Assembly (NCBI GenBank): GCA_945900945.1
Contig: CAMDKL010000024.1
Coordinates: 1-50,938, forward strand
DNA: 50,938 nucleotides
Source of the DNA: Pirellula staleyi DSM 6068
GTDB lineage: Bacteria; Planctomycetota; Planctomycetia; Pirellulales; Pirellulaceae
Direction of reading: 5' to 3'
The translations under genes and the position numbers were made by a program. The notes under the pieces were generated by a model, which made no database searches, was not told where the DNA came from, and saw only the letters and a list, made by a program, of their open reading frames with translations. Below are positions 1 through 50,938 of the stretch, one piece after another (the stretch's first letter is position 1; every line of letters begins with the position of its first letter).

Positions 1-134
1 AGCTCCAACCTCATTCGGGTCGAAAATATCGCGTCGATTCTGCCTAGCCATAAGAGCCTCCCGCAATTGCAAACCGGATCGAAATGAAATGAACAGGCTG
101 AAAGTCTACCAAAATACAGGAATCGGCACAATAC

Positions 135-232
135 ATGTACGGATGGCCCCTGCAATTGATGTATGGATGGCCCCTGCAATTGCGCCCCTGCAATTGCTGC
201 AATTGCCACGCCTGCAATTGCCACTGCAATTG
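135..232. repeat. Short tandem repeat tract built on CTGCAATTG
   Basis: A 24-base unit at 135-158 is repeated at 159-182 with one mismatch. The core CTGCAATTG then recurs, giving six copies in all at 150, 174, 188, 197, 212 and 224. The core contains the palindrome CAATTG. The tract lies about 120 bases beyond the 3' end of the iron-uptake operon. ORFs drawn through it on either strand only read repeat units and are not credible genes. I recognise no gene in 1-353. Slippage expansion is the simplest origin. Confidence 0.8.
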
Positions 233-353
233 TGGAAGAAATCTTCGAATCGTACCGGTTCCAATTCAGGCGTTTGGCTTTGTACAAAACCGCTTGTAGC
301 CATGATCGCCCAAATGAGCAGCATCCATGTCGGCGTCGACGGCTTGCAAGGCA

Positions 354-560
354 TCATGGTCCTTCGCGCTTTAGTTCAACGAGTCGAGGCCCGATGCTGG
401 CTTTTTGACAACCGTTTACGCAACCGCTGCAACTTGACTGAGAGATCTTGGTTGGGTCAGGTTTACGAACGATGCCTACCCAGAAGGAAAACCATGATCG
501 CAGGACGACACCTGCGCAGATGGCAACGACTAGCATTGCAATAAAAGTTTGTAGGTTCAT
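354..560 (-). CDS. FeoB-associated Cys-rich small membrane protein
   Basis: This 68-residue protein starts at an ATG five bases after the feoB stop, with a GGAG upstream that lies inside the end of feoB. It has one N-terminal membrane segment (about residues 4-22), then a basic stretch and a Cys motif SCSGCVNGC at about residues 43-51. This layout, one helix followed by clustered Cys just after feoB, is that of the FeoB-associated Cys-rich membrane protein family. Its role is thought to be helping Fe(II) transport, perhaps by binding iron on the cytoplasmic side; that is family knowledge and not shown here. The longer 140-codon frame starting at 776 is an artefact that reads antisense-frame codons through the end of feoB. 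Confidence 0.7.
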   Translation of the reverse strand: MNLQTFIAMLVVAICAGVVLRSWFSFWVGIVRKPDPTKISQSSCSGCVNGCQKASIGPRLVELKREGP

Positions 561-565
561 GCTTT

Positions 566-2854
566 CTAGCTCCAATAACGGAAGCATTGGTAAGTTAACC
601 AAGCCCCAATATATGCCAGGGTTGTCATGTATGCGAACGAAAAAATAGGCCAACGCCATGAATTCGTTTCCCGCCGAATCGTCATCAACGTTGCAGAGCA
701 CTGCGCACACAATGCAAAGAACACCATAATCGAAAGTGCAGTGGCCAAATTGAAAACCAGCTTGCCGTCCGGCCATTCGGCCATTTGCATCTGTTTCTGA
801 AGCCCTTGACTTTCTTCATCTTGTTCGGAACCGAGTGAGTATATTGTGCCCAGGGTCGCGATGATCACTTCACGCGCTGGAAAGGATGCGATGACAGCCA
901 CTCCGATCTTCCAGTCCCAACCAAGCGGTTTTACGGCAGGTTCGATATAATGCCCAACACTCCCTAAAAAGCTCGATTCAATCAACTGGCTTCGCTGCCG
1001 ATTGACTTGCTCCTGTGCTTCGTCGATGGCTGTTTGGTTTTCTGCGAGAGATGCTTCCATCGTTGAACGCTCGTCGCTTTGTGGTTGACTCACTTGATTT
1101 TTGATCCATTCAGCCCGTGTCGAATTCAATTGTTCTAGCGTTGCCACGGATTGATCAAGCGACCTGTGGTCACCGGGGAAATAGGCTGCGGCCCAAACCA
1201 AAATGGAAGTGCAAAAAATCAAGGTGCCCGCTCGAACCACAAATGCAACCAAGCGTTCCCAAACCCGTTGGTAGATCACGATGAGCGAAGGCCATTTGTA
1301 GCTGTGCAGTTCCATCAAAAAAGTTGCCGGTTCTCCTGGGAAAAAAAACTTTTTAAGAATCCAAGCGACCGGAATCGCCACCAACGCACCGAGCGATTGC
1401 ATCAGCATCAGCACCATGCCTTGCAGCGATATCCAGCCCCCCGCATACCTTGTTGCCGGAACGAAGGCCGCGACCATTAAGATATAGACAGGTAGTCGGG
1501 CCGAACAACTCATCAGAGGTGCAATGAGCAACGTGACCATGCGGTCTTTGCGGCTTTCGATTGTTCGCGTTGCCATGATTCCAGGAACTGCGCATGCAAA
1601 CGAGGACATCAATGGCAAGAACGATTTCCCGCTCAAGCCTACCGTTGTCATGATCTTGTCCATGACAAAGGCTGCGCGAGCCATGTAGCCGCAGTCTTCT
1701 AAAATTGCGATAAACAAAAAAAGGATTGCAATCTGCGGAAGAAAAACGATTACGCCCCCGACACCCGCAAGAATGCCGTCCACGATCAAGCTGCGAAGTG
1801 CGCCTGGGCTAAGAACCGCTTCAACTCCACTACTCGCTTGTGCCTGTAGCCATTGAATGCCGTCCATCGGTAATTTTGCAAACAGCGTAATCGATTGAAA
1901 AACGAGAAACATGATCAAGACAAATACGAGCATCCCAACCCAACGATGTGTCAACCATCGATCGATCCGATCACTTGGCGACGCACTGCGAGATTCTTGT
2001 CGTACTACCGCGCCGTCGATTAGTTTTCGTACCCATGCGTATCGAGCTTTAGTCTCAAACATTGGAACTTTGCAACCCGCCGACTGAAGTCGCGTTCTGG
2101 CTTCGTCAATTCGCTCTGCAATATCGGACAGACCCGACTGGCAAAGCGTTTTTTGAAAATGCCCATCGGAATCAATCAAAAGCCGATCGACTTGAGAGGT
2201 CGAGGGTTTGCGACCTTTGGCTTCGAGCCATTCCGAGAGCAGCTTGGATTCGAGATGAAATGCAGCAGGAAACATTGTGCGAGCTAGTTGCCCAGGCTGT
2301 GGCATGGGGGCCGGAGCATTGAGCGTGTGTTCGATGGTCTTTCTTAGTTGATCAATCCCTTGCCGCTTGTTGGCCGAGGTGCAAACCACAGGCACACCTA
2401 GGCGTTGGGATAACAACTCGGCATCGACAGTCAGTCCCTCGCTGGTCACTCGGTCCCACATGTTCAGCACCACAATCACGGGCAACCCTAGCTCGTATAT
2501 TTGGCTGAAGAGGTAGAAATTGCGTTCGATATTAGCGGCATCGAGAATAACGATCGCAACCTCAGGCCTCGCTTGTTGAGGCAATTCTCCGGACAAAACA
2601 TTAACAGCAACTGCTTCGTCTGCGGAACGTGCTGCAAGCGAATAGGTTCCAGGCAAGTCGATAACGTCAATCAGGTTTGTCGTTCCGGAAAGCCGGCCAA
2701 CTTTTTGCTCGACTGTCACACCTGGATAGTTGCCGACCCGAGCGTTCATACCGCAAAGAGCATTGAACAAACTGCTCTTGCCCGTGTTTGGATTGCCTAT
2801 GAAAGCGACAACGCGAACAGATTTCTGAATCGATTCAGCCTGCAACATCAGCAC
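566..2854 (-). CDS. feoB: Ferrous iron transporter FeoB
   Basis: This 762-residue inner-membrane Fe(II) transporter has an N-terminal G-protein domain. The visible GTPase motifs are GNPNTGKSS (residues 20-28), DLPG (66-69) and NMWD (131-134). The G domain is followed by a helical regulatory region and then a polytopic membrane domain from about residue 308, with the Gate-type motifs typical of FeoB. A hydrophilic, probably coiled-coil segment rich in Gln and Glu (about residues 570-625) sits between membrane segments. Length is normal for the family. The start overlaps the end of the upstream feoA by 7 bases, so translation is probably coupled. All residues needed for GTP binding appear present. 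Confidence 0.95.
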   Translation of the reverse strand: MLMLQAESIQKSVRVVAFIGNPNTGKSSLFNALCGMNARVGNYPGVTVEQKVGRLSGTTNLIDVIDLPGTYSLAARSADEAVAVNVLSGELPQQARPEVAIVILDAANIERNFYLFSQIYELGLPVIVVLNMWDRVTSEGLTVDAELLSQRLGVPVVCTSANKRQGIDQLRKTIEHTLNAPAPMPQPGQLARTMFPAAFHLESKLLSEWLEAKGRKPSTSQVDRLLIDSDGHFQKTLCQSGLSDIAERIDEARTRLQSAGCKVPMFETKARYAWVRKLIDGAVVRQESRSASPSDRIDRWLTHRWVGMLVFVLIMFLVFQSITLFAKLPMDGIQWLQAQASSGVEAVLSPGALRSLIVDGILAGVGGVIVFLPQIAILFLFIAILEDCGYMARAAFVMDKIMTTVGLSGKSFLPLMSSFACAVPGIMATRTIESRKDRMVTLLIAPLMSCSARLPVYILMVAAFVPATRYAGGWISLQGMVLMLMQSLGALVAIPVAWILKKFFFPGEPATFLMELHSYKWPSLIVIYQRVWERLVAFVVRAGTLIFCTSILVWAAAYFPGDHRSLDQSVATLEQLNSTRAEWIKNQVSQPQSDERSTMEASLAENQTAIDEAQEQVNRQRSQLIESSFLGSVGHYIEPAVKPLGWDWKIGVAVIASFPAREVIIATLGTIYSLGSEQDEESQGLQKQMQMAEWPDGKLVFNLATALSIMVFFALCAQCSATLMTIRRETNSWRWPIFSFAYMTTLAYIGAWLTYQCFRYWS

Positions 2855-3090: not shown

Positions 3091-3455
3091 TATCCAGCAG
3101 TTGGGATAACGAAAATTTCTGCGGAATCATCTAGTCTTAAACTGATGCGTCTGCCCTCGATGCAGATCAGGCATGGTTCACCCCGGCAAACCATGCGAAC
3201 TTTACACCCCTGGTGGATCCCCAGTTCCGCCAATCTCTGCATTTGACACGGCTGACCGCACATCTCAACGATGGTACCGTGGCATTCTGGTTGCAAAAAT
3301 TCGATTGGGAGGGGAACCGAGTCGGTAATCATGGAACCACAGACTGGAAAGATTTCGTAATTGTGAAACCGCGTTGTTTCTGGCTGTCGGTCGATACCAA
3401 TTTCTAAATAGGTACGGCACTGTTTTTGTTGAGACTCAATTTCAACAACCAGCAA
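3090..3455 (-). CDS. Second FeoA-domain protein, Cys-rich
   Basis: The C-terminal half carries a FeoA-type fold: a segment with RLAELGIHQGCKVRMV, followed by EGRRISLRLDDSAEIFV. Unlike its neighbour it has many Cys residues (C59, C66, C70, C83, C89, C94, C97 of the long form), including CGQPC, so it may bind metal or a cluster; that is inference. The 121-codon form starts at a TTG. An ATG at 3332 would give an 80-residue protein the same size as FeoA, but neither start has a clear ribosome site. It is the first gene of the feo operon, so any iron-dependent promoter should lie upstream in 3456-3690, where I found no convincing Fur box. Confidence 0.8.
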   Translation of the reverse strand: MLVVEIESQQKQCRTYLEIGIDRQPETTRFHNYEIFPVCGSMITDSVPLPIEFLQPECHGTIVEMCGQPCQMQRLAELGIHQGCKVRMVCRGEPCLICIEGRRISLRLDDSAEIFVIPTAG

Positions 3456-3691
3456 CCATTGAACTATACTCGCTCTTTTGAATTATGGAAAGCTGACTCA
3501 TAGTCATTTCTTGTCGGAATTTTGATAATTTTCGCTATGGCCGCTGTGAAAAGCTTTCTGTTGCATTCGGTTCAAGTTTCGGGGAAATCGGCACCAAATT
3601 CCTAGTATTGGATGCTAGTAAAAGTCGATGACCAGCCTAAGTGTAGGCTTCGAAGGGATATTGAAGCTAGCAAAACGGAGGGAATCGTGCG
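3456..3691. other. Divergent intergenic region, feo operon and exporter
   Basis: Together with the small ORF that follows, this forms a 342-base gap between the minus-strand feo operon and the plus-strand exporter gene. It is fairly A+T-rich around 3460-3545 and must hold promoters for both sides. I see no clear -35/-10 pair or known operator. Confidence 0.4.
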
Positions 3692-3797: not shown

Positions 3798-6700
3798 ATG
3801 GCTTACATCAGTCGCGATGGCAGTCAAGGCAACGGAATACCCGTGCCTAAGAAGTCGAAAGGCTATAGAGTGCAACAACCGTCATTGGATGGAAAAACGT
3901 TTTACGACCGTTGGGGATGGCTAATCCTCATCGCCAGCTTGGCGTGTGTACCGTTCGCTTTTTTTGGAGCGGCCAAAGCCATCCAAAGCAATGTGAACAA
4001 GGTGGAGGACTGGCTTCCCAAGTCGTTTGCAGAGACGGCTGAGCTAGCTTGGTTTCGAAAGAACTTCCCATCGGACCAATTTATTTTGGTGAGTTGGGAG
4101 GGGTGCAAGCTGGCGGAGAACCCGGAACTAGGTGCTGAAGGGGACGACCCTCGAATAGCCAAACTGGCGGCATTGGTTGCACCTCCAGATTCAGACTCCA
4201 CCGATATCGATTTTGTCGAAGCAAAAAAGTATTTTAAGGGCGTATCGACAGGCCGTCAGCTTATTGAGCAGTTAACGACAGGACCACATCCGCTTGAGTA
4301 TTCTGAGGCGATTGAGCGGCTCAAGGGGCAAGTACTCGGTCCGGACGGGCGTCAGACTTGTGTAATAGTTTCGCTGGACCCTGAGACGACAGTAAAGTTA
4401 AAACCAATCCTTGGTCACGGACAAGTGCGTATTTTTCGTCCGAATGTTCCTCCGGGAGTTCTTCGTCGATTAATAGCGCAGGCCGGAATTCCTGACGAGC
4501 AGCTGCATCTTGGTGGCCCTCCTGTCGACAATATATCGATCGATGAGGAAGGCGAACGCACATTGGTTCGGCTTGCAGGGTTTTCTGGGCTGATTGGCCT
4601 CGGGCTGGCGTGGTGGTCTCTTCGAAGCGTTGTCCTTACCTTCATCGTTTTTGGATGTGCAGTGACAAGTGCGGCTTCCTCGCTTGCGATGATTTGGGCG
4701 ACAGGCGAAACGGTTGATGCCATCGTGCTTTCGATGCCTTCCTTGGTGTATGTACTAGCAATATCGGGTGCTGTCCATTTCGTCAACTATTACAAGGATG
4801 CGGTTCAGGTCGGCGGCTTGAAGGGAGCGACCGAACGGGCAGTCATACATGCGCTGAAACCAGCGACCCTTGGTTCGACAACGACGTCACTTGGTCTCTT
4901 GTCGCTCTGCGCTAGTGAGCTAACCCCAATCCGGAAATTTGGTATTTACGCGGCTTCGGGGGTGATGATTCTGACCGTAGTTCTTTTTCTATTGTTGCCT
5001 GCTGCATTGCATTTGATCCGTTATGCGAAACGCTGGGTCGTTGAGGAGGTCCCTGACGAGGTAAAAGGGCTTGCTCGAAGTACGGGATCGCAGCCAACCG
5101 AAGACTCGTACAGTGAAAAGTGGTGGGCCAGCGTAGCGACATTTATAGTAAAGCACCATTTTGGGGTGGCGACGGCTTGTATTCTTTTCGTCTTAACGGT
5201 TGGCTTTGGCTTGACCCGAACCAAGACTAGTATCGATTTGCTAGAGCTTTTTGATTCGCAGGCTCGAATTCTCAAAGACTATCGCTGGCTTGAAAAGAAT
5301 TTGGGAATGCTCGTCCCTCTCGAAATTGTGGTTCAGTTTGATAAGGATAGCGTTGCAAAGTCGGAGGAAACTCGCTCAGGACAAATCGATTCGGACGAGA
5401 ACGCCGGACTTGAGGATGCCACACGCCTAACCTTTTTGGAGCGAATGGAAACCATCGTTCAAATCCAAGATTCCATTCGAGATCAATTTGGCGAAAACGG
5501 ATCGAAGATTGTTGGACGGAGCATGTCGGCCGCAACTTTTGCGTCCAGTTTGCCCTCCCAGGGGCTAAGTTTGAAAAAGTACATGGAGCGACGGGTATAC
5601 AACAAGGCATTGGAGAGTAACCGCGAAGAATTCATCAAATCTGGGTTCTTGAGAATTGATCAAGCTACCGGTGCCGAACTTTGGCGTATCAGTCTGAGAG
5701 TCGCAGCATTTCAAGGAGTTGATTATGGTCAATTTGTGCACGAGCTCCGAGCAGCTGTTTCTCCGATCATTGATGCCCACGGTGACCGTGTAAGGATACT
5801 AAAGCAAATCGCCGCATGGACCGGTGATATGAAATTCACAGGAAAACGAATCGTAATTTGGGATCCGATCATCAATCGAGCGGACTCCGTTGGAGAAGAA
5901 ACGGTATCTAAATTGAAGTCAGATGAACTCTCCTCACTTTTGGGTAAGGCTCGAGTCAACGTTCAAAGACTATCACAAGATCCAGCTTCGATGCCGTTGG
6001 TTCAATTGCAAAAGCTGAGCGAGTTCGATGCGGTAATTTTGACCGGTGCTTTTTCTGAAGCCGAAATTGGAACGCTTGGAGTCACGCTCGGAAAAGTCAT
6101 CGATCTTCAAGCACTCGAAGCGAATTCGCCGAAGGCAATGGTTTCCTCTGTTTACACGGGAGTTGTGCCGATCGTATACAAAGCTCAACGAGCTTTGCTT
6201 CAAAGTCTAGTAGAAAGCACATTCTGGTCATTCATTACAATTACACCGCTCATGATGTTCGTTTCTCGAAGCGTTAGAGCGGGAATTGTTGCAATGATTC
6301 CAAACGTATTGCCGGTTTTGGTGATTTTCGGTTTGATGGGTTGGTTGAATATTCCGATCGATATCGGTTCCATGATGTCAGCAAGTATTGCGTTAGGTGT
6401 TGCGGTGGACGACACCATTCATTTCCTTTCTTGGTTTCGTGGTGATCTACATCAGTTGAAAGATCGGCGCAAAGCCATTATCGCTTGCTACAAACGATGT
6501 GCCACTCCGACACTGCAGGCTGCTTGTATCAGTGGTTTGGGATTGTCGGTCTTTGCATTTAGTACGTTTACGCCAACGCAAAGGTTTGGTTGGTTGATGT
6601 TGACGATCCTGGTTGCGGGCGTGATAGCCGAACTAATATTGCTTCCAGCGATCCTCGCCGGTCCACTTGGAAAAGTTTTCGAACCCAGCCAATCGCGACA

Positions 6701-6815
6701 TAGCACCGTTTCGCGATACATGCTCATTATGCGGTATGAATTGCGCCGGCGTTTCGATCGAAAGTCGCGGGTGACGCCTTCGGTTACCGAAGGGGATTTC
6801 CAAAGCGCCGCTTGA
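3798..6815 (+). CDS. RND/MMPL-family exporter
   Basis: This 1005-residue inner-membrane protein has the RND layout: one N-terminal helix (about residues 39-57), a large extracytoplasmic loop to about residue 255, a block of five or six helices, a central helix near 450, a second large loop, and a final block of helices from about residue 805. The last block contains GVAVDDTIHF, with the paired acidic residues typical of the proton relay of MMPL-type exporters. Substrate cannot be told from sequence; lipids, hopanoids or hydrophobic compounds are typical for this group. No membrane-fusion or outer-membrane partner is adjacent. The start is an ATG without a good Shine-Dalgarno site. The hisE gene follows on the same strand. 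Confidence 0.85.
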   Translation: MAYISRDGSQGNGIPVPKKSKGYRVQQPSLDGKTFYDRWGWLILIASLACVPFAFFGAAKAIQSNVNKVEDWLPKSFAETAELAWFRKNFPSDQFILVSWEGCKLAENPELGAEGDDPRIAKLAALVAPPDSDSTDIDFVEAKKYFKGVSTGRQLIEQLTTGPHPLEYSEAIERLKGQVLGPDGRQTCVIVSLDPETTVKLKPILGHGQVRIFRPNVPPGVLRRLIAQAGIPDEQLHLGGPPVDNISIDEEGERTLVRLAGFSGLIGLGLAWWSLRSVVLTFIVFGCAVTSAASSLAMIWATGETVDAIVLSMPSLVYVLAISGAVHFVNYYKDAVQVGGLKGATERAVIHALKPATLGSTTTSLGLLSLCASELTPIRKFGIYAASGVMILTVVLFLLLPAALHLIRYAKRWVVEEVPDEVKGLARSTGSQPTEDSYSEKWWASVATFIVKHHFGVATACILFVLTVGFGLTRTKTSIDLLELFDSQARILKDYRWLEKNLGMLVPLEIVVQFDKDSVAKSEETRSGQIDSDENAGLEDATRLTFLERMETIVQIQDSIRDQFGENGSKIVGRSMSAATFASSLPSQGLSLKKYMERRVYNKALESNREEFIKSGFLRIDQATGAELWRISLRVAAFQGVDYGQFVHELRAAVSPIIDAHGDRVRILKQIAAWTGDMKFTGKRIVIWDPIINRADSVGEETVSKLKSDELSSLLGKARVNVQRLSQDPASMPLVQLQKLSEFDAVILTGAFSEAEIGTLGVTLGKVIDLQALEANSPKAMVSSVYTGVVPIVYKAQRALLQSLVESTFWSFITITPLMMFVSRSVRAGIVAMIPNVLPVLVIFGLMGWLNIPIDIGSMMSASIALGVAVDDTIHFLSWFRGDLHQLKDRRKAIIACYKRCATPTLQAACISGLGLSVFAFSTFTPTQRFGWLMLTILVAGVIAELILLPAILAGPLGKVFEPSQSRHSTVSRYMLIMRYELRRRFDRKSRVTPSVTEGDFQSAA

Positions 6816-6933
6816 AGTGGTTGGAATCGACAAAACGCCAATTGCGATTTACCATTGGCAAGTTGTTTCCAATCACTCCTTCCAATTGCCCGCACGAGAG
6901 ATTCGCTCAGCGGGTCCCAGCAATGCTCAACCA

Positions 6934-7275
6934 ATGGCAGATGATATTTTTGATCGATTGATGGCGGAACTCCATCATCGCGTTTCCAATTTACCCGAGG
7001 GTTCTTATACCACAAAACTTCTTCAGGGTGGCATCCCAAAAATTGGGAGCAAGATCCTCGAGGAAGCCAGCGAAGTGATTGAGGCGGCAGGCGAAGAGGG
7101 CGAAGCAGGTGTGCAACACACTGTGCGAGAAGCATGCGATGTGGTTTTTCATCTTTGGGTGCTTTTGGCGAGTCGTGGCATTAGTGTAGATGCTCTGCGC
7201 AGCGAGCTGGAACGACGCGAGGGAGTCTCGGGTCTTGAAGAAAAACGTCGACGTGGACAGGAGAAGGCTTCGTGA
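6934..7275 (+). CDS. hisE: Phosphoribosyl-ATP pyrophosphatase HisE
   Basis: This 113-residue cytoplasmic enzyme hydrolyses phosphoribosyl-ATP to phosphoribosyl-AMP and pyrophosphate, the second step of histidine synthesis. It shows the MazG-like all-alpha pattern of HisE: LPEGSYTTKLLQGG, then KILEEASEVIEAA with the metal-binding Glu cluster, then REACDVVFHLWVLLA. I place the start at the ATG at 6934, since the 39 extra codons from a GTG at 6817 are not family-like. It is a stand-alone HisE, not a HisIE fusion. Its stop overlaps the hisG start by four bases. Confidence 0.92.
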   Translation: MADDIFDRLMAELHHRVSNLPEGSYTTKLLQGGIPKIGSKILEEASEVIEAAGEEGEAGVQHTVREACDVVFHLWVLLASRGISVDALRSELERREGVSGLEEKRRRGQEKAS

Positions 7276-18129: not shown

Positions 18130-18237
18130 GAAGCCGTTAGTTCAACTATTGGCGGCGATTTCATCAGGCCCCCTCTCCCTTTATCAAGGGCGAAGAGGAG
18201 AAGTGAACAATTGTTAAAGAGGTAAGGATGCGTAGGT

Positions 18238-42990: not shown

Positions 42991-43887
42991 ATGAACTTAG
43001 CAATTTCAACACCCTTTGCACCCTTTGCACGCTTGGCGGATGTCCTATCGGATATCACGCTCATGGCACAGGCCTTGCCCGATGCTTCGACTGGCCAATC
43101 GCTGGGCCAATCGATTCCGAGTACGTGGACTCTTTCGATGCTTTTACCTATTCTTTTGGGAGCCATTGGATACCTGTTAATCCAACAAGGGGTTTTGAAT
43201 TCGCGGCCTTTTTTTGCGGGAGGCGTTATCGCCAGCGTGATAGCCGTCGTCATTGTGGCGATTGGTTTCACGCCTGCCACCTTGGAGTCCATCCTGTTAA
43301 TGGGATTTTGTGTTCTGGCAACGGGTGGTGGAGTGGGTTTCTTGGTAGCACGGGAACCGGTTTACGCCGCACTTGGATTTGCGACGGTTGTTCTTTCGGT
43401 ATGCGGTGTGTTGTTTATGCAATCCGCCTTATTCATCGCGGCGGCAACCATGATTGTTTACGCAGGTGCAACAATCATTATCTTTTTGTTCGTGCTCATG
43501 TTCGCTCAACAATCCGACTTGCGAAACTATGATATTCAACTCAATCGTCCCCTGGTTGCAGCGACTATTGGCGCGATTTTGCTTACAACTCTCACCTTGT
43601 GTGTTACTGCCGAAAATGCAGTTTTTGCTGCAACGGCTGACCTGACACGGCCCTTGAGTCTTGCAAGCCTGCCAGACAACTTCATTTCGGATGCTGGCAG
43701 AGAATTGTCAAAGAAATTGGAGGCAATGGAACCGGGCCAGAGCATTGTTCCGAAATCTACCGCAGGGCTTGGGAGATCGCTTTACACGGATTATCTGATT
43801 GCGGTAGAACTCGCTGGCACAATCTTGCTGGTAGCAACCATCGGAGCAATCGCGTTAGCACAACGAACCACGGAGAGCCAATCGTGA
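42991..43887 (+). CDS. nuoJ: NADH-quinone oxidoreductase subunit J, extended
   Basis: The 298-residue membrane subunit has the NuoJ core at about residues 105-220 (REPVYAALGFATVVLSVCGV, then IVYAGATIIIFLFVLMF). About 100 residues with extra helices precede the core, and a periplasmic insertion precedes the last helix. The usual length is 165-200. It overlaps nuoK by four bases. Confidence 0.92.
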   Translation: MNLAISTPFAPFARLADVLSDITLMAQALPDASTGQSLGQSIPSTWTLSMLLPILLGAIGYLLIQQGVLNSRPFFAGGVIASVIAVVIVAIGFTPATLESILLMGFCVLATGGGVGFLVAREPVYAALGFATVVLSVCGVLFMQSALFIAAATMIVYAGATIIIFLFVLMFAQQSDLRNYDIQLNRPLVAATIGAILLTTLTLCVTAENAVFAATADLTRPLSLASLPDNFISDAGRELSKKLEAMEPGQSIVPKSTAGLGRSLYTDYLIAVELAGTILLVATIGAIALAQRTTESQS

Positions 43888-44375
43888 ACGGCGTACTCAC
43901 TCAAAACTTGCTGGTTTTTGGCGGGATTCTTTTTGTGATCGGCATGGTTGGATTTCTGACCCGTCGGTCGCTAATCCTGATGTTCTTGTCCCTTGAAATG
44001 ATGTTATCTGGAGTGAGCGTCAATCTCATCGCGTTCTCAAGACACCATCAAAATTACCAAGGTCAGATCCTTGCCATTATGGTCTTGACCATTGCCGCAT
44101 GCGAAGCCGCAATCGCCTTAGCATTGGTCGTGTCTTTGTTTCGACGCAAAGCGACGCTCGACATTGCGGCATGGGACGAACTGAGTGAAACGCTCGTTCC
44201 CAAGGCTATCGAAGTTTCCATTACGCTGACGGACCCCAACCTGGCATTCCCGAAACTGACCCCTGCTGGATTGGATCCGATGTCACATCCCATTTCTGCC
44301 CATTTCGATGATCAATCGAGCGCAGGTGGCGAGCGGGAGAATGCGAGTATGAGGGAGGCTGGATCACATGCTTAG
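43884..44375 (+). CDS. nuoK: NADH-quinone oxidoreductase subunit K, extended
   Basis: The 163-residue protein has a standard three-helix NuoK core (residues 1-100, with the acidic LSLEMMLSGVSVNLIAF and AACEAAIALALVV). It also has a soluble C-terminal tail of about 60 residues (Ser/Pro-rich, no motif) that typical 100-residue NuoK lacks. Its end overlaps nuoL by eight bases. Confidence 0.93.
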   Translation: MNGVLTQNLLVFGGILFVIGMVGFLTRRSLILMFLSLEMMLSGVSVNLIAFSRHHQNYQGQILAIMVLTIAACEAAIALALVVSLFRRKATLDIAAWDELSETLVPKAIEVSITLTDPNLAFPKLTPAGLDPMSHPISAHFDDQSSAGGERENASMREAGSHA

Positions 44376-46314
44376 TCTTTTTGCTTGGATGGTTCCTCTA
44401 GCTCCGTTAGCGGGTTGCATTGCATGTGTGATTCTGGCCTTTCGCGGAGACCGCAAGATCGCACATTTGCCAGCGGTTATATCGCTGCTTTTCGCAGCTT
44501 TGTTCACCCTCTGTTTGATTGTGTTCGGCGCTCAAGGAGAAAAAGGGGCGGTCTTTGCGGGATACCGATATCTCAACGTAGGCAGCTTGACGGTCGACGT
44601 ATCGCTCAAAGTCGACACGTTGTGTCTTTCGCTTTTATCTGTCGTAACCTGCATTTCGGCGATGATTGCGATTTACTCCCGCGACTACATGCGGGACGAT
44701 CCTGGATTTGCTCGGTACTATGCGGTTTTTTGTGGATTCGTTTTTTCGATGACGATGTTGGTTTTGTCCAACAACTTGCTAATGCTCTATGCATTTTGGG
44801 AGGGAGTAGGTACGTGTTCTTTCTTGCTGATCGGCTTTTGGTACAGTAAGCCTAGCGCGGCACGAGCTGCGACGAAAGCATTTCTCGTCAATCGCGTGGC
44901 AGATTGCGCCTTTCTTATGGGCATACTTTTGCTTGCTTATGCGGTCGGCCATGTCGAGGGCGCAGGAGCCAGTTTTTTTGCACGATTGAATTTCGACAGT
45001 ATCTTCAATGCAGTTCCTCATCTTGCGGTTCAGAATCCTGAGTTGCTTACAACAATCGGTTTCCTGTTAATGATTGGAGCGATTGGCAAGTCGGCTCAGT
45101 TTCCGTTCCATGTTTGGTTGCCAGACGCGATGGAGGGCCCAACGCCGGTATCCGCGTTGATACACGCGGCGACCATGGTTACGGCCGGTGTCTATTTGAT
45201 AGCTCGCCTTTCGCCTTTGTTAGAATCGACGCCTGCGGTTTTGAGCGTGGTCGCATGGTTAGGCGGTATCACTGCGTTTATTGGGGCTTGGATGGCGCTT
45301 TTTCAGAGTGACCTCAAACGCGTTTTGGCTTATTCCACCATTAGCCAATTGGGTTATCTATTTATGGCATTGGGGGCTGGGGCTATCAAGGACTTGATGG
45401 TTGTGGCTGTCATCGCCGCCATGTTTCACTTGGTTACACATGCGTTTTTCAAAGCACTGCTTTTCCTTGCGGCGGGCAATGTGATGCATGCGATGGGAGA
45501 TGTGATTGATATGCGTCGATTCGGCGGACTACACAAAGTCTTGCCAAAGACAAATATTTTGTTCTTGATTGGTGCTGCAGCCCTGGCTGGCTTGCCACCG
45601 CTGGCGGGTTTCTTTAGTAAGGACGGCATTTTGGCCGTCTTAGCTCAGGCCAGCAAAGATGGTGAGTATGGAATTCAGTTTACCATTTTGCTATTCCTTG
45701 GATTTGCTACAGCGCTCATGACCGCCGTGTATACGTCTCGAGCTTATTTCAGCACATTTTGGGGAGCCGAGAAGCTGCCCGAGGAAGCAGGGCATCATGC
45801 GCATGAAGCGACGAACGTCATGCTTGCTCCCATGGTCGTCTTGGCCGTTGGAGCACTCTCGGCCGGGCTTCTTCTTGGACCGACGCACGGGATCGCAAAC
45901 TACCTGCAGCAAACCCAAGAACTCAGTTGGCATGCCGAGCACACGGAAGAAATGTGGGTCATGGTTGCCTCGGGATTATTGGCGGTGGTCGGTATTGCAA
46001 TTGGCTATGCACTCTCAAAAGTCGGGCCAAGCACAGCGACGACGGGGCCGATGGTCGCCTTTGCCGACTTTGGACGCAATCGGTTGTATATCGATTGGCT
46101 GTATAGTGTTGCAATCGTCTCTCCGATGGAGTGGTTTGCGGCAATATTGGGTTGGATCGACGAACAAATCGATTCGATGGCAATGCAAATAGCGTCGCTA
46201 CCTAGACTATTTGGCTTGATTGGACAACGCTTCCAAAATGGCCGTATAGCTGATTATACCTACATGACTGCGTTTGGAATTGCTGCCCTCGCTGTTTGGA
46301 TCGCTACTCGATAA
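44368..46314 (+). CDS. nuoL: NADH-quinone oxidoreductase subunit L
   Basis: This 648-residue antiporter-like proton-pumping subunit has WEGVGTCSFLLIGFWY, QFPFHVWLPDAMEGPTPVSA and LIHAATMVTAGVYLI, the expected Glu/Lys/His pathway residues, and the long lateral helix and extra terminal helix expected for NuoL. Confidence 0.95.
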   Translation: MLSLFAWMVPLAPLAGCIACVILAFRGDRKIAHLPAVISLLFAALFTLCLIVFGAQGEKGAVFAGYRYLNVGSLTVDVSLKVDTLCLSLLSVVTCISAMIAIYSRDYMRDDPGFARYYAVFCGFVFSMTMLVLSNNLLMLYAFWEGVGTCSFLLIGFWYSKPSAARAATKAFLVNRVADCAFLMGILLLAYAVGHVEGAGASFFARLNFDSIFNAVPHLAVQNPELLTTIGFLLMIGAIGKSAQFPFHVWLPDAMEGPTPVSALIHAATMVTAGVYLIARLSPLLESTPAVLSVVAWLGGITAFIGAWMALFQSDLKRVLAYSTISQLGYLFMALGAGAIKDLMVVAVIAAMFHLVTHAFFKALLFLAAGNVMHAMGDVIDMRRFGGLHKVLPKTNILFLIGAAALAGLPPLAGFFSKDGILAVLAQASKDGEYGIQFTILLFLGFATALMTAVYTSRAYFSTFWGAEKLPEEAGHHAHEATNVMLAPMVVLAVGALSAGLLLGPTHGIANYLQQTQELSWHAEHTEEMWVMVASGLLAVVGIAIGYALSKVGPSTATTGPMVAFADFGRNRLYIDWLYSVAIVSPMEWFAAILGWIDEQIDSMAMQIASLPRLFGLIGQRFQNGRIADYTYMTAFGIAALAVWIATR

Positions 46315-46327
46315 TTTCCCGAGACTC

Positions 46328-47998
46328 ATGACGTTTATCATCCCACTCTTAATCCTCACGCCCCTCATTGTTGGGCTTGGGATCTTTCTTGCCGGAAGCA
46401 AAGGCAATGCGCTCGTCAACACTGCCATATGGGCCGCCGCTTTGGTTTTGGCGTTGAGCTTTTTATTGGTCGGACACGTGTATACGTCGAGCGCTGCGAA
46501 TGACCCAGCCAACAGCTCGACTATTGTGCCAAGAATGGTCTATGCGCCCGATTGGCTACAAATCCATCTACCAATCTCTGTTGGCGGCCATAAGGTTCAC
46601 TGGCAATTGCAATTTGGTGCCGATGGGATTGGCGCACTACTTGTGTTGCTCACAGGAATTGTTGGTTTGGCCACGATGAGCCTTGCAACGTTTCAGATCA
46701 AGGAACGATTGCACCAGTACCTCGCATTAATGCTCATTACGCAGTCGATGCTATTGGGCGTTTTTTTGTCGATGGACTTGCTGTCGTTCTATCTTTTTTT
46801 CGAAGCTGTTTTATTGCCATTGGTATTGCTCATCCATGGTTGGGGGGACCGAGCCGAGTCGCTCATCGCATCTCGCAAGTTTCTTCTGTTTACCCTAGTT
46901 GGTAGCGTGCCGATGGTGTTGGGTCTGATTGGACTAGCCTTAAACTCCGCCACTCCGGATCGGGCTTCGACGGTTTCACTGCAGGCACTATCGGCAATTG
47001 CCCGAGAAACGCAGCTTGCTGCAATCGGTTCGGCGGTGAACGAATCCGTCAATGCAGTAGATGCTCTTGCGGCGAAAGAGCAGTGGATCGTTTGGCTGTT
47101 GTTGTTGGGTTTTGGTATCAAATTGGCGATTTTGCCATTGCACACTTGGCTGCCAACAACCTACGCAGTGGCTCATCCGAATACGACAGCACTCATAGCA
47201 TCTGTTGTTGCCAAACTCGGTGTCTTTGGAATCATTCGAATTGTCATTCCATTAACTCCCATAGCACTGTCGACATACGCACAAATGCTGTTCGGTGGCC
47301 TGGGTGCATTGGCCATTGTTTATGGAGCGCTCGTTGCGTTGTCTCAAACAGACTTGAGGCGGGTACTGGCCTATAGCTCACTTAGCCATGTTGGGTTCAT
47401 CACGCTCGGACTGATGGCGATGAACACCGAAGGATTGACGGGCGCAGCCATTCAGATGTTCAATCACGGTATCATCACTTGTGGAATGTTTCTGATGCTC
47501 GCAATGCTTGAACAGCGACGAGGTAAGATATCGCTCGCCGAACAAGATCGTGGGTTAGCTGCGATTTACCCGCGACTCGGGGTGATGTTGGTGTTCTTTA
47601 CTTTGGCAGGTGCAGGGCTACCTGGACTGAACGGATTTGTCGGCGAGGTGCTCGCTATGTCAGGCATGATTCGAGTCTCTGGTCTGTTTACCGGAGTTGC
47701 CATTCTTGGGACTGTTTTGGGAGCATGGTACGGTTTGCGTATCGTTCAGCGACTCCTTTTTGGAAGCGACGGGAATACTAGAACCAAGTCGACTGTTGGA
47801 TTAACGAGCGACATCGGAACGAAAGAATTTACACCACTAGTTGCGATGGCTGCAGTTTGTTTGCTCATTGGAGTTCGCCCCCAAGACACCATTCGACTGG
47901 TCGAGAAGGACGTAGCACGTATCGCCATCGTTTCGGAGCCCAGCGCAAAAGCAATTCATCCGGAAATCGATCAGCGGGTAGCACAAATTCGACCGTAG
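46328..47998 (+). CDS. nuoM: NADH-quinone oxidoreductase subunit M
   Basis: This 556-residue antiporter-like subunit shows SFYLFFEAVLLPLVLLIHGW, PLHTWLPTTYAVAHPNTTA and YSSLSHVGFITLG. The ATG at 46328 lies 13 bases after the nuoL stop; a frame from 46274 would overlap nuoL and adds no family sequence. It is the usual length for the family. Confidence 0.94.
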   Translation: MTFIIPLLILTPLIVGLGIFLAGSKGNALVNTAIWAAALVLALSFLLVGHVYTSSAANDPANSSTIVPRMVYAPDWLQIHLPISVGGHKVHWQLQFGADGIGALLVLLTGIVGLATMSLATFQIKERLHQYLALMLITQSMLLGVFLSMDLLSFYLFFEAVLLPLVLLIHGWGDRAESLIASRKFLLFTLVGSVPMVLGLIGLALNSATPDRASTVSLQALSAIARETQLAAIGSAVNESVNAVDALAAKEQWIVWLLLLGFGIKLAILPLHTWLPTTYAVAHPNTTALIASVVAKLGVFGIIRIVIPLTPIALSTYAQMLFGGLGALAIVYGALVALSQTDLRRVLAYSSLSHVGFITLGLMAMNTEGLTGAAIQMFNHGIITCGMFLMLAMLEQRRGKISLAEQDRGLAAIYPRLGVMLVFFTLAGAGLPGLNGFVGEVLAMSGMIRVSGLFTGVAILGTVLGAWYGLRIVQRLLFGSDGNTRTKSTVGLTSDIGTKEFTPLVAMAAVCLLIGVRPQDTIRLVEKDVARIAIVSEPSAKAIHPEIDQRVAQIRP

Positions 47999-48041
47999 TC
48001 ATTCATTTTCGCCAACGACCCTTAAAGAGTTTGAAATAACT

Positions 48042-49484
48042 GTGGAACCATTCCAAACCCTAATATCCTCGCTCATGCTAATGGCACCAGCGATCACATT
48101 GATCCTCGGTGGCTCCATCGTGATGGCAGCGTCGTTGGTTCTGAAATCGGGCACTGCTCAGGATGTCCATGGTCAACGTACAGGAGTCGCAGTCGTTTCA
48201 CTCGCAATTCTTGCCCTGGCTGCGATTTTGGGGACGATCCGAAGTGTTCCAGCCGATTTAGGTCAAGGCTTGTTCCGGTTCGACGGAACCGCTTTGGCAG
48301 CCGAACGTCTTGCGCTGCTTGGCGGTCTCATACTCATTTTGATGTCATGGTCTACTGCACCTAAAGCGAACCTGGGCGAGTATTATGGTTGCTTGATCAT
48401 TATCATCGGAGGGATCCCTGTGGTGGGTGCTTCGAATGATTTGGTATCACTGTTTCTAGGGCTGGAACTGATCAGTATTCCAACCTACATCATGCTTGGA
48501 ATATCTAAAGGGGATAACGCAGGCTCGGAAGCGACGATCAAGTACTTTTTGTTGAGTGCGTTCGCTTCTTGCTTTTTCTTGCTCGGGGTTAGCTACCTGT
48601 ATGGATTTGTTGGTTCGACGAATTTGCAGGTGATACAGAGCGGCTATGCGTCTGGTGGCAGATTGGTTTCGTTCGCGTTGGCAATGGTGATGTGCGGTCT
48701 TGCATTTCGAATCACCGCTGTACCATTTCACTTCTACGCCCCTGACGTCTTTGAGGGAGCAAGTCTTACGATGGCGGCCGTCATGAGTTATTTGCCTAAA
48801 GTGGCAGGCTTTGTTGCGTTAATTCGTGTATTAGGGACGGGACTAGGTACGGAAGCGGTCGAAGTCGTAGTGCCGGTTCTGTTCGTGTGTGCGGCGTTGA
48901 CCATGTTGGTCGGAAACTTTATGGCATCAGCGCAGAGCAGTCTCCGACGTTTGTTGGCGTATTCGAGTGTCGCTCATACGGGTTATTTGCTGCTCGCTTT
49001 GACAGCGCTGCTCAGGCAAAACGCGGAGCCGAATGTATTGTTCTCTTACCTCGCGGCTTATGCAGCTATGACACTTGGATTTTTCGCGTGTTTAGGTGAG
49101 ATTGAGGCGGCGGGAGGCAAGACACAACTGGTTGGCGATTTGTCTGGAATGTTTTATCGCCGGCCTGCGGCATCCATAGGGTTGACGGTATGTTTAATCA
49201 GCTTGATTGGTTTGCCGCTAACGGCAGGGTTCTGGGCCAAGTTTCTGGTCTTCATGGGGACGGTTGCGGCCGGGACAAAGGATCCGTGGTCGATTGCCAT
49301 GGCGGTGCTGATGGCATTCAATGCGGTCATCGCTGCGGGTTACTATTGGCGAGTGTTGAGCAAACTGTTCGAACGGAGCGACGCATACGTACCGTTGCGA
49401 GTGTTTCGCCCGAGCTTGTTTGTGGCGTACACCATCTGCGTTGTACTGACCTTGGTATGGTTCTTTGTACCAGCCGTGATGTAG
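48042..49484 (+). CDS. nuoN: NADH-quinone oxidoreductase subunit N
   Basis: This 480-residue antiporter-like subunit starts with GTG and shows LGLELISIPTYIMLGISKGD, TAVPFHFYAPDVFEGAS and AYSSVAHTGYLLLAL. It is the last gene of the complete 14-subunit operon and lies 43 bases after nuoM. Confidence 0.94.
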   Translation: MEPFQTLISSLMLMAPAITLILGGSIVMAASLVLKSGTAQDVHGQRTGVAVVSLAILALAAILGTIRSVPADLGQGLFRFDGTALAAERLALLGGLILILMSWSTAPKANLGEYYGCLIIIIGGIPVVGASNDLVSLFLGLELISIPTYIMLGISKGDNAGSEATIKYFLLSAFASCFFLLGVSYLYGFVGSTNLQVIQSGYASGGRLVSFALAMVMCGLAFRITAVPFHFYAPDVFEGASLTMAAVMSYLPKVAGFVALIRVLGTGLGTEAVEVVVPVLFVCAALTMLVGNFMASAQSSLRRLLAYSSVAHTGYLLLALTALLRQNAEPNVLFSYLAAYAAMTLGFFACLGEIEAAGGKTQLVGDLSGMFYRRPAASIGLTVCLISLIGLPLTAGFWAKFLVFMGTVAAGTKDPWSIAMAVLMAFNAVIAAGYYWRVLSKLFERSDAYVPLRVFRPSLFVAYTICVVLTLVWFFVPAVM

Positions 49485-49641: not shown

Positions 49642-49651
49642 TGATCCTCAG

Positions 49652-49670
49652 GGCCAGCCCAACGCTGGCC
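49652..49670 (+). terminator. Hairpin downstream of the nuo operon
   Basis: GGCCAGC and GCTGGCC form a perfect 7-bp stem with loop CCAAC, about 170 bases after nuoN. No run of T follows, so it may end transcripts by a route other than intrinsic termination, or be another short palindromic repeat. From 49671 to 49893 I see no gene. Confidence 0.35.
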
Positions 49671-49893
49671 TGATGAAATCGCAGCCAATAGTTCTTTAAC
49701 TCGTTAAAAATCGATTTCTGTGACAATCGTGAGACACACCCGAACAATCTGCGGTTTCAGTGACGTGAATGTCCCTCCGTGCACAGCGCCAGTTAGCCGA
49801 CGTTGGCCAGGTGTCGCACCTTCAGTGTGCTTGCCAACTGCCAGAGCCGCTCGCGGCTTGCTGCCAGAAACCGACCAAGCAATCGACCACCGG

Positions 49894-50785
49894 CTACTCG
49901 GCCTTCGCCCTCTGGAATCGAAGTGTACCAAATAAACGCCGCCGAAGCTGGTAGGTGTCCGCCTGCATTGCATGTCCTGACCAACTCGTCAATCGTTGCC
50001 GGATTTCTTCGAAACTCATTTTGCCCTCGGAATACTTCAACTGCATCTTGCGAACCCGCCGACGGAACCTCCGCACATTGTCCTTCACCAATAAGCGATG
50101 CGTTGGAAAAACGCGGTATCCCAGAAAGCGTATCCCCTCCTTTACTGGAAAAATCACACTCTTGTTCGGATGCAAATGCAGTCTCCGAGTCTCAGGGAAA
50201 TCGCCTACATGACTACGCACATTATCAAGCTCTCGTTTGTCGTTGGAAAAAACCAAAAAATTATCGACATATCGCACGTAGCCCGGCATTCGCATCCGAT
50301 CCTTGACGAAATGGTCCAATGAATCGAGAAATGCAATTGCCGAGCAGCTCATGATCAATCGACGGAAAGACTTTCTTAATGTCGGCTTTCAGAACATAAC
50401 GAAAGCGACCTGCATAATGCTGTGCGCGTCGCACGGCTGCATGCGTTCCCTTGCCGACTCGACAAGCGTATGAATCCGTGACGAATGTTCGCTCAAATAG
50501 AGGCGATAGAATTTGAGTCAAGGCATGGTGTACGACGCGGTCTCGATACGGCGAAGCGGAAATCAGTCGCTTCTTGGGTTCATGGACATAAAACTCTTTG
50601 TACGGGCTAGGTGAATAAGTTCCATCAACCAGTTCACGATGTAGTGTCCATAGCTCGCGTTGCAAACCAAAATGGAAATTGACTACGGCTGGCTCAAATC
50701 ATTTTCCTCGAGCCGATTGCTGCGCTGCCTTGAGCAAATTCTCAAAGGAGATAAGCTCGTCCCACAAATTGCCAATGCGTTTCAT
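49894..50785 (-). pseudogene. Decayed reverse transcriptase, DGR/Avd-linked type
   Basis: The gene starts at an ATG at 50785 (MKRIGNLWDELISFENLLKA) and an in-frame TGA follows at 50701-50699, where relatives have Arg or another residue. The same frame resumes with SASPYRDRVVHHALTQIL, FVTDSYACRVGKGTHAAVRR and KADIKKVFPSIDHELL (RT motifs up to the first catalytic Asp). Near 50340 about 70 codons and part of one more are missing, removing the SQ/GLPIG-type motif and shifting the frame. The next piece (from DSLDHFVKDRMRMPGYVRY) has YVDN in place of the catalytic YxDD, then LHLHPNKSVIFPVKEGIRFL and a normal C-terminus ending near 49894. Nonsense, deletion-frameshift and active-site changes make it inactive. 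Confidence 0.8.
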
Positions 50786-50791
50786 GGTCGG

Positions 50792-50938
50792 CTATTTCGC
50801 TTTCCGAACCCAGCCACCTACCAAGCGACCGATTTCATCAATCGCCTTACTCGCGAATTCGTAACTGTTGAGCTTGATGCACTGCAAATCCTTTGCCAGT
50901 CTCATTTGAAATCGAAGAATCTCCAATTTGAGATTGGC
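50792..50938 (-). CDS. Avd-like four-helix-bundle protein, C-terminal part
   Basis: The last 48 codons of a gene cut by the window edge. The sequence includes LEILRFQMRLAKDLQCIKLN, SYEFASKAIDEIGRL and GGW near the end, typical of the four-helix-bundle (23S rRNA-intervening-sequence/Avd) family, whose last helix carries 'DEIGRM.GGW'. Its stop lies six bases before the reverse-transcriptase start, the usual layout of avd-RT cassettes. Avd proteins bind the reverse transcriptase and the RNA template in diversity-generating retroelements. The 5' part is outside the window. Confidence 0.7.
   Translation of the reverse strand, partial: ANLKLEILRFQMRLAKDLQCIKLNSYEFASKAIDEIGRLVGGWVRKAK

Follow-up and report, generated by a model that had tools for sequence, protein, structure and literature searches.

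A decayed avd-reverse transcriptase cassette of a diversity-generating retroelement and its sister copy in a Pirellula genome

The end of a contig assigned to Pirellula staleyi DSM 6068 carries the tail of an Avd-like gene followed by a broken reverse transcriptase (RT) gene, which raises the question of what kind of element once stood here and whether any part of it still works. The window, i.e., the whole stretch of DNA analyzed, comprises all 50,938 nucleotides of contig C24 (G000:C24) in an assembly of 6.47 Mb and 313 contigs. A sequence-only reading had taken the gene pair for the fossil of a diversity-generating retroelement (DGR) or of a close unnamed RT class. In DGRs, the RNA of a template repeat (TR) is converted into cDNA with errors at adenines, and this cDNA overwrites a variable repeat (VR). 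Our analysis identifies the window cassette as a decayed DGR paralogue, a fossil avd-RT pair. It is very probably the wreck of a redundant DGR in a genome with at least two avd-RT copies, the window copy being dead. The features of the cassette and of related loci in the same genome are compiled in Table 1.

Table 1 Coordinates of the contig-end cassette and of related loci in the same genome
Feature	Location	Strand	Remarks
avd gene, 3' part (48 codons, open frame, TAG stop)	50938-50792	minus	5' part lies past the contig end
Spacer from avd stop to RT ATG	50791-50786	minus	six bases
DGR RT pseudogene	49894..50785	minus	ATG at 50785, stop at 49896-49894
In-frame TGA in RT pseudogene	50701-50699	minus	CGA in C189 paralogue
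Junction of 176-nt deletion, frameshift	50332/50331	minus	C189 608-783 absent; TTTC microhomology
YVDN instead of catalytic YVDD	50271-50260	minus	YVDD in C189
Transposase-like gene, 3'-terminal fragment	49793..49893	minus	abuts RT stop; 83% over 100 nt to C72:29670-29769
avd(3')-RT-TR cassette with intact RT	L008 (G000:C189) 1-1345		same genome
HRDC-type DGR fossil: open FGE target, HRDC gene, RT without first half	L009 (G000:C113) 5154-7085	minus
Open FGE target with VR-like end, then heavily deleted HRDC-RT remnant	L096 (G000:C101) 800-1908	minus
VR-like FGE end with premature TAA, then broken Avd piece	L093 (G000:C158) 3126-3574

The gene upstream of the RT had been described as Avd-like and as ending six bases ahead of the RT start, and both points hold. 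The fragment matches NCBIfam NF033474 DivGenRetAVD (2.5e-13, 50.2 bits, profile positions 60-104 of 104; the cut-off of 80 bits is set for the whole protein), PHROG 3206 'Avd protein of DGR' (3.4e-10) and Pfam bAvd (36.8 bits, cut-off 40). The scores stay under whole-protein cut-offs because only a 48-amino acid fragment is present, and the juxtaposition of avd with the RT is likewise seen in the window for the 3' 48 codons only. An upstream gene with no homology to avd, which would have spoken against a DGR, is thus not what we found.

Both pieces of the window RT, lying in two broken frames, exceed the Pfam RVT_1 cut-off. The in-frame stop and the YVDN in place of YxDD are present as had been read; the deletion with frameshift is present as well, its size of about 70 codons being corrected to 176 nt, or 58 2/3 codons. 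The deletion takes out GIPIGNQTSQ, the DGR signature in motif 4. Thus, the window copy has neither motif 4 (IGxxxSQ) nor YxDD, whereas the RT on C189 has both, and the loss of the motif together with the change from YVDD to YVDN makes the window copy a fossil that no longer functions as a DGR.

In the own genome, Pfam RVT_1 was matched at seven places, of which the window holds two; the intact RT on C189 scored best. This RT of 355 amino acids contains GIPIGNQTSQ and YVDD, and 830 of 889 aligned nucleotides (93.4%) are identical to the window RT. The window Avd fragment is identical to C189:1-147. Right behind the C189 RT stop lies a putative, asparagine-rich TR coding RGGSFNNNAANVRSSNRNNNQPDNQNNNAGFRVA, which by its sequence has the usual look of the TR of a formylglycine-generating-enzyme (FGE)-type target; PF03781 also detects it (6.7e-5).

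Having a complete sister gene at hand, we compared it with other RTs. In a tree of 53 RTs, for which 58 rows had been gathered and five short or distant ones dropped beforehand, and from which retron and DRT enzymes are absent, 46 DGR-type rows including BPP-1 Brt were separated from 7 group II-like rows by a 100/100 split. The window copy belongs to the DGR clade, where it forms one group (100/99) with C189, the Gemmataceae locus L055 and the congener L113. The motif (I/V/L)GxxxSQ marks DGR RTs and QGxxxSP marks group II RTs; among the 58 rows, where motif 4 was readable (several rows were not), DGR-type and group II-like sequences carried the respective motif. The motif split agrees with the tree. 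Against the PDB, the C189 RT matched 8ub7_A, a 328-residue 'Reverse transcriptase', at 4.6e-62, and the best group II RT (GsI-IIC) at 5.2e-30; we take 8ub7 to be the Bordetella DGR RT, as its 328 residues equal the length of BPP-1 Brt. PHROG 1423 'Reverse transcriptase' was matched at 1.6e-124.

These comparisons bear on the possibility that the pair represents a degraded group II intron, retron or other non-DGR RT beside an unrelated four-helix-bundle gene. The top RT match in NCBIfam is indeed group_II_RT_mat, at 154 bits for a cut-off of 300, group II-like RTs occur in the own genome and in the genus, and PADLOC, which gives no cut-offs, shows cross-matches to DRT models (best RT_UG17, 9.3e-40). 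However, the tree places the gene apart from the group II-like RTs, its motif is IGNQTSQ and not QGxxxSP, 8ub7_A has an E-value 32 orders of magnitude lower than that of the best group II RT, and the retron and DRT models of NCBIfam stay under their cut-offs (Drt3a 66 bits, cut-off 200; retron St85 53 bits, cut-off 235). The TR behind the paralogue, the Avd matches and the tree together refute a non-DGR origin, which we regard as hardly credible. The DGR-type assignment made earlier is thereby supported by the paralogue's motifs, the tree, the PDB ranking and the TR; of the RT phylogeny that had been proposed, the placement with DGR RTs stands, whereas retron and unknown-group RTs were compared through models and the PDB only. 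A grouping with group II introns, the other outcome that had been named as fatal, did not occur.

C24 and C189 start at the same base and their first 149 bases are identical. This could also be expected of two strain variants of a single locus in a mixed assembly, and not of paralogues. The flanks differ, however: the window continues into nuo-like genes at 43884-49484, and C189 continues into unrelated genes. In addition, the contamination estimate of the assembly is only 1.97%, and the tetranucleotide make-up of both contigs is alike (rho 0.917). Strain variation is therefore very improbable, and we treat the two copies as paralogues.

With the Gemmataceae RT of L055 as the outgroup, changes between the two paralogous RTs were assigned to their branches. 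Of these changes, 15 replacement and 13 silent ones fell on the window branch and 4 and 10, respectively, on that of C189, while 17 could be assigned to neither; the compared sites comprise about 681 replacement and about 207 silent sites (of 888). The silent share on the window branch lies above the neutral expectation and far below that of C189, which is an indication of partly relaxed constraint; the counts are small, and each base change was judged singly, with the C189 codon as reference.

The sequence-only reading had proposed a search for template/variable repeat pairs near the cassette. No TR was found in the window: when scanned with the C189 TR, its 50,938 bases gave no match at 60% of non-A positions, and alignment gave the same result. 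Homology between the window and C189 stops at TAGCCG, i.e., the RT stop plus 3 nt, which is where the TR starts in C189 and L055. The latter two are alike through the TR and a further block to about 200 bases behind it (local score 93), and the window DNA downstream of the RT holds no counterpart of this post-TR block (best local score 20 vs 93). Instead, the RT stop abuts the 3' end of a transposase-like gene. Its relative on C72 has an open end of 181 amino acids; across 66% of this length, it shares 35.5% identity with a single plasmid gene that carries the annotation 'transposase'. Pfam recognizes no family in the window fragment, the C72 open reading frame or the plasmid protein, so that the name 'transposase-like' is tentative.

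The junction may stem from a deletion that joined the RT stop to the transposase-like gene, or the copying may have ended short of the TR. Under the second alternative, avd and the RT would have been copied without the TR, as a partial copy or as one using the C189 TR in trans; this is a variant of the history of the cassette and leaves its identity untouched. The homology ending 3 nt past the RT stop, exactly at the TR start of C189 and L055, would fit such a copy. So would the 13 silent changes among the 28 polarised ones of the window branch, set against about 207 silent sites of 888, since they suggest that constraint acted on the window copy for a time, which an RT working in trans could explain. 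However, a deletion into the transposase-like gene explains the junction equally well, CCG being common to both sequences at this point. We therefore consider copying without the TR possible but unlikely, and later loss of the TR from a full DGR the likelier history. An empty-site comparison downstream of nuoN in the readable congeners gave no insertion boundary, as the genes behind nuoN differ among them. Separately, a short dispersed repeat is located at 49646-49693, and 17 further places are listed for the genome, including one at 18144-18170 of the window.

To view the ancestral arrangement, we turned to relatives. The nearest named relative is L055, from the Gemmataceae MAG Baikal-deep-G178, with an RT 68% and an Avd tail 72-73% identical. 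Its order is FGE target with VR, Avd, RT and TR, the target lying in two different frames of the MAG sequence, and its TR/VR mismatches fall on 15 of 28 A and 2 of 87 non-A positions. It resembles the window and C189 in its RT and Avd, and C189 also in the TR directly behind the RT and the conserved post-TR block; unlike the window, its RT and TR are intact and a VR with A-specific differences is present. The congener G398 carries Avd, RT and a TR-like repeat. We examined 39 relative loci; 30 contain a TR-like repeat, and in 18 a TR and a VR occur together. In 19 TR/VR pairs, mismatches occur at 286 of 545 TR adenines and at 56 of 1640 other positions; one non-homologous pair was dropped, and the search pattern, being FGE-like only, misses other targets. 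L064 and L066 are noisy pairs, with 18/88 and 9/88 non-A mismatches.

More widely, RT matches at E <= 1e-10 were obtained in 116 of 392 genomes of the phylum, group II-like RTs included, and at 1e-6 in 20 of 27 genomes of the genus, the own genome counted and group II-like RTs again mixed in. Viral relatives of the RT number only four and are distant (27-38%), and all 166 matching phage records stay below 60% identity; viral and phage records thus give no sign of phage carriage of the close lineage.

From these relatives, the original order would have been a target gene with a 3' VR, avd, RT, TR and trailing sequence. In an intact cassette of this kind, a complex of Avd and RT would copy the TR RNA with adenine errors, and the cDNA would overwrite the VR of an FGE-like target. 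Such adenine-specific writing is shown by the TR/VR pairs of the relatives and would extend by analogy to the window lineage. The C189 copy keeps an open RT and a TR, whereas the window copy was inactivated by the nonsense mutation, the loss of the catalytic aspartate and the 176-nt deletion; it has no TR, its RT stop being joined to the transposase-like tail. The window copy is no longer capable of adenine-specific writing.

No cognate target was found, since the assembly lacks the DNA upstream of both copies: the Avd tail occurs only at the ends of C24 and C189, and a full-length related Avd used as genome query retrieved only these two and the broken piece on C158. PF05635 (23S-IVP) matches, full-length on C33 and truncated on C7, proved to be other than Avd, and the related-Avd query misses both. 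If the spacing is as in L055, the VR is to be expected about 0.3-0.4 kb past the contig end; a near-identical stretch common to both loci probably collapsed and was dropped during assembly. A whole-genome FGE profile search returned 13 places including the C189 TR itself, with no second TR and no VR matching the C189 TR. Whole-genome blast with this TR, which is insensitive to a rewritten VR, gave only short matches besides itself. When the window and L001-L029 were scanned with it, only C158 exceeded 60% at non-A positions. With differences at 35 of 96 non-A and 22 of 34 A positions, C158 is too diverged to be the cognate target; its mild adenine bias would be compatible with its having once been the target of a related TR and having diverged since.

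The genome contains further DGR remnants. On C113, an HRDC-type fossil carries an RT that falls into another DGR clade, together with congeners (36% of columns filled). C101 has a 125-nt deletion relative to C113 and retains only the start and end of the HRDC gene and a scrap of RT; it represents a later stage of the same decay. Two further contigs, C137 (L010) and C195 (L095), carry FGE genes with VR-like C-termini, and searches with five queries (HRDC, two RT, two Avd) found no HRDC, Avd or DGR-type RT on them: C195 gave no match, and C137 a weak RT match to group II-like pieces. On C137, broken group II-like RT fragments with YADG for the expected YADD are seen at 1130-1686 of the minus strand (L004).

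The VRs of C101 and C113 differ at 18 of the 27 positions where a congener's TR has A and at 4 of 87 others, against 33 differences within the 150 bases upstream of the VR; this pattern is a clear mark of past writing. The pair C101/C137 is less clean (21/27 A, 21/87 other). Compared with the TR of congener L116, C101, C113, C137 and C195 each show 17-18 differences among the 29 A positions and 13-14 among the 85 others, which suggests past writing at C137 and C195 more weakly. A TR for this family was not found in a scan of 20 loci (the full C101 and C195 lay outside it). One could imagine that the genus uses DGRs for a while and then removes them piecemeal, keeping the written target, so that the wrecks on C24, C113, C101, C137 and C195 would be the normal end of DGRs after a useful variant and not the outcome of mere neglect; we find this doubtful.

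The prototype BPP-1 DGR (mtd VR, avd, TR, brt) has an Avd and an RT of the same families as the window cassette and follows the same adenine-directed TR/VR principle as the DGRs described here; its Brt is 40% identical to the RT query over 95% of the query. In BPP-1, the TR lies between avd and the RT, whereas in C189, L055 and L113 it follows the RT. The targets here are FGE-like, unlike mtd, and the window copy is dead and has no TR.

Decay of DGR copies has already been described in other bacteria, and the window case is a clear, fairly ordinary genomic fossil. Thiohalocapsa PB-PSB1 is reported to carry degraded redundant DGR loci and truncated DGR RTs (PMC10907252), and an RT-only remnant in Anabaena sp. 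90 and a remnant TR-VR in Anabaena have been described (PMC7517822). The likeness consists of duplicated DGR components decayed by or near mobile elements; the lineage differs, and here an avd-RT wreck by a transposase-like tail coexists with an intact RT paralogue in the genome. For Treponema denticola isolates, targets without RT or TR are reported (PMC4891356). There, FGE-type targets outlive their machinery, as on C137 and C195, and an HRDC accessory gene occurs, as on C113; the stages are spread isolate by isolate there, whereas several are found within one genome here (PMC4891356).

The death of a DGR thus becomes visible with its sister as a yardstick, the window copy lacking the template and the catalytic centre and C189 having both. 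Together with this pair, the other remnants in the genome can be arranged by degree of decay, with an apparently intact machine at one end and targets without one at the other, and this series allows one to ask whether target proteins are under selection after loss of the mutator.

The sequence trailing the TR was also inspected for RNA structure. Folding of C189 1225-1560 was no better than that of shuffled sequences (z -0.02). C189 (L008) 1437-1548 fits Rfam RT-3 at 22.9 bits, under the gathering score of 40.5, and an RT-3-type match was not found behind the TR in L055 and L113. Behind the TR of L070, RT-14 scores 39.1 bits where 48.1 are required. The RT-n RNA families are so named for lying near RT genes, and they may be trailing RNAs of DGR templates.
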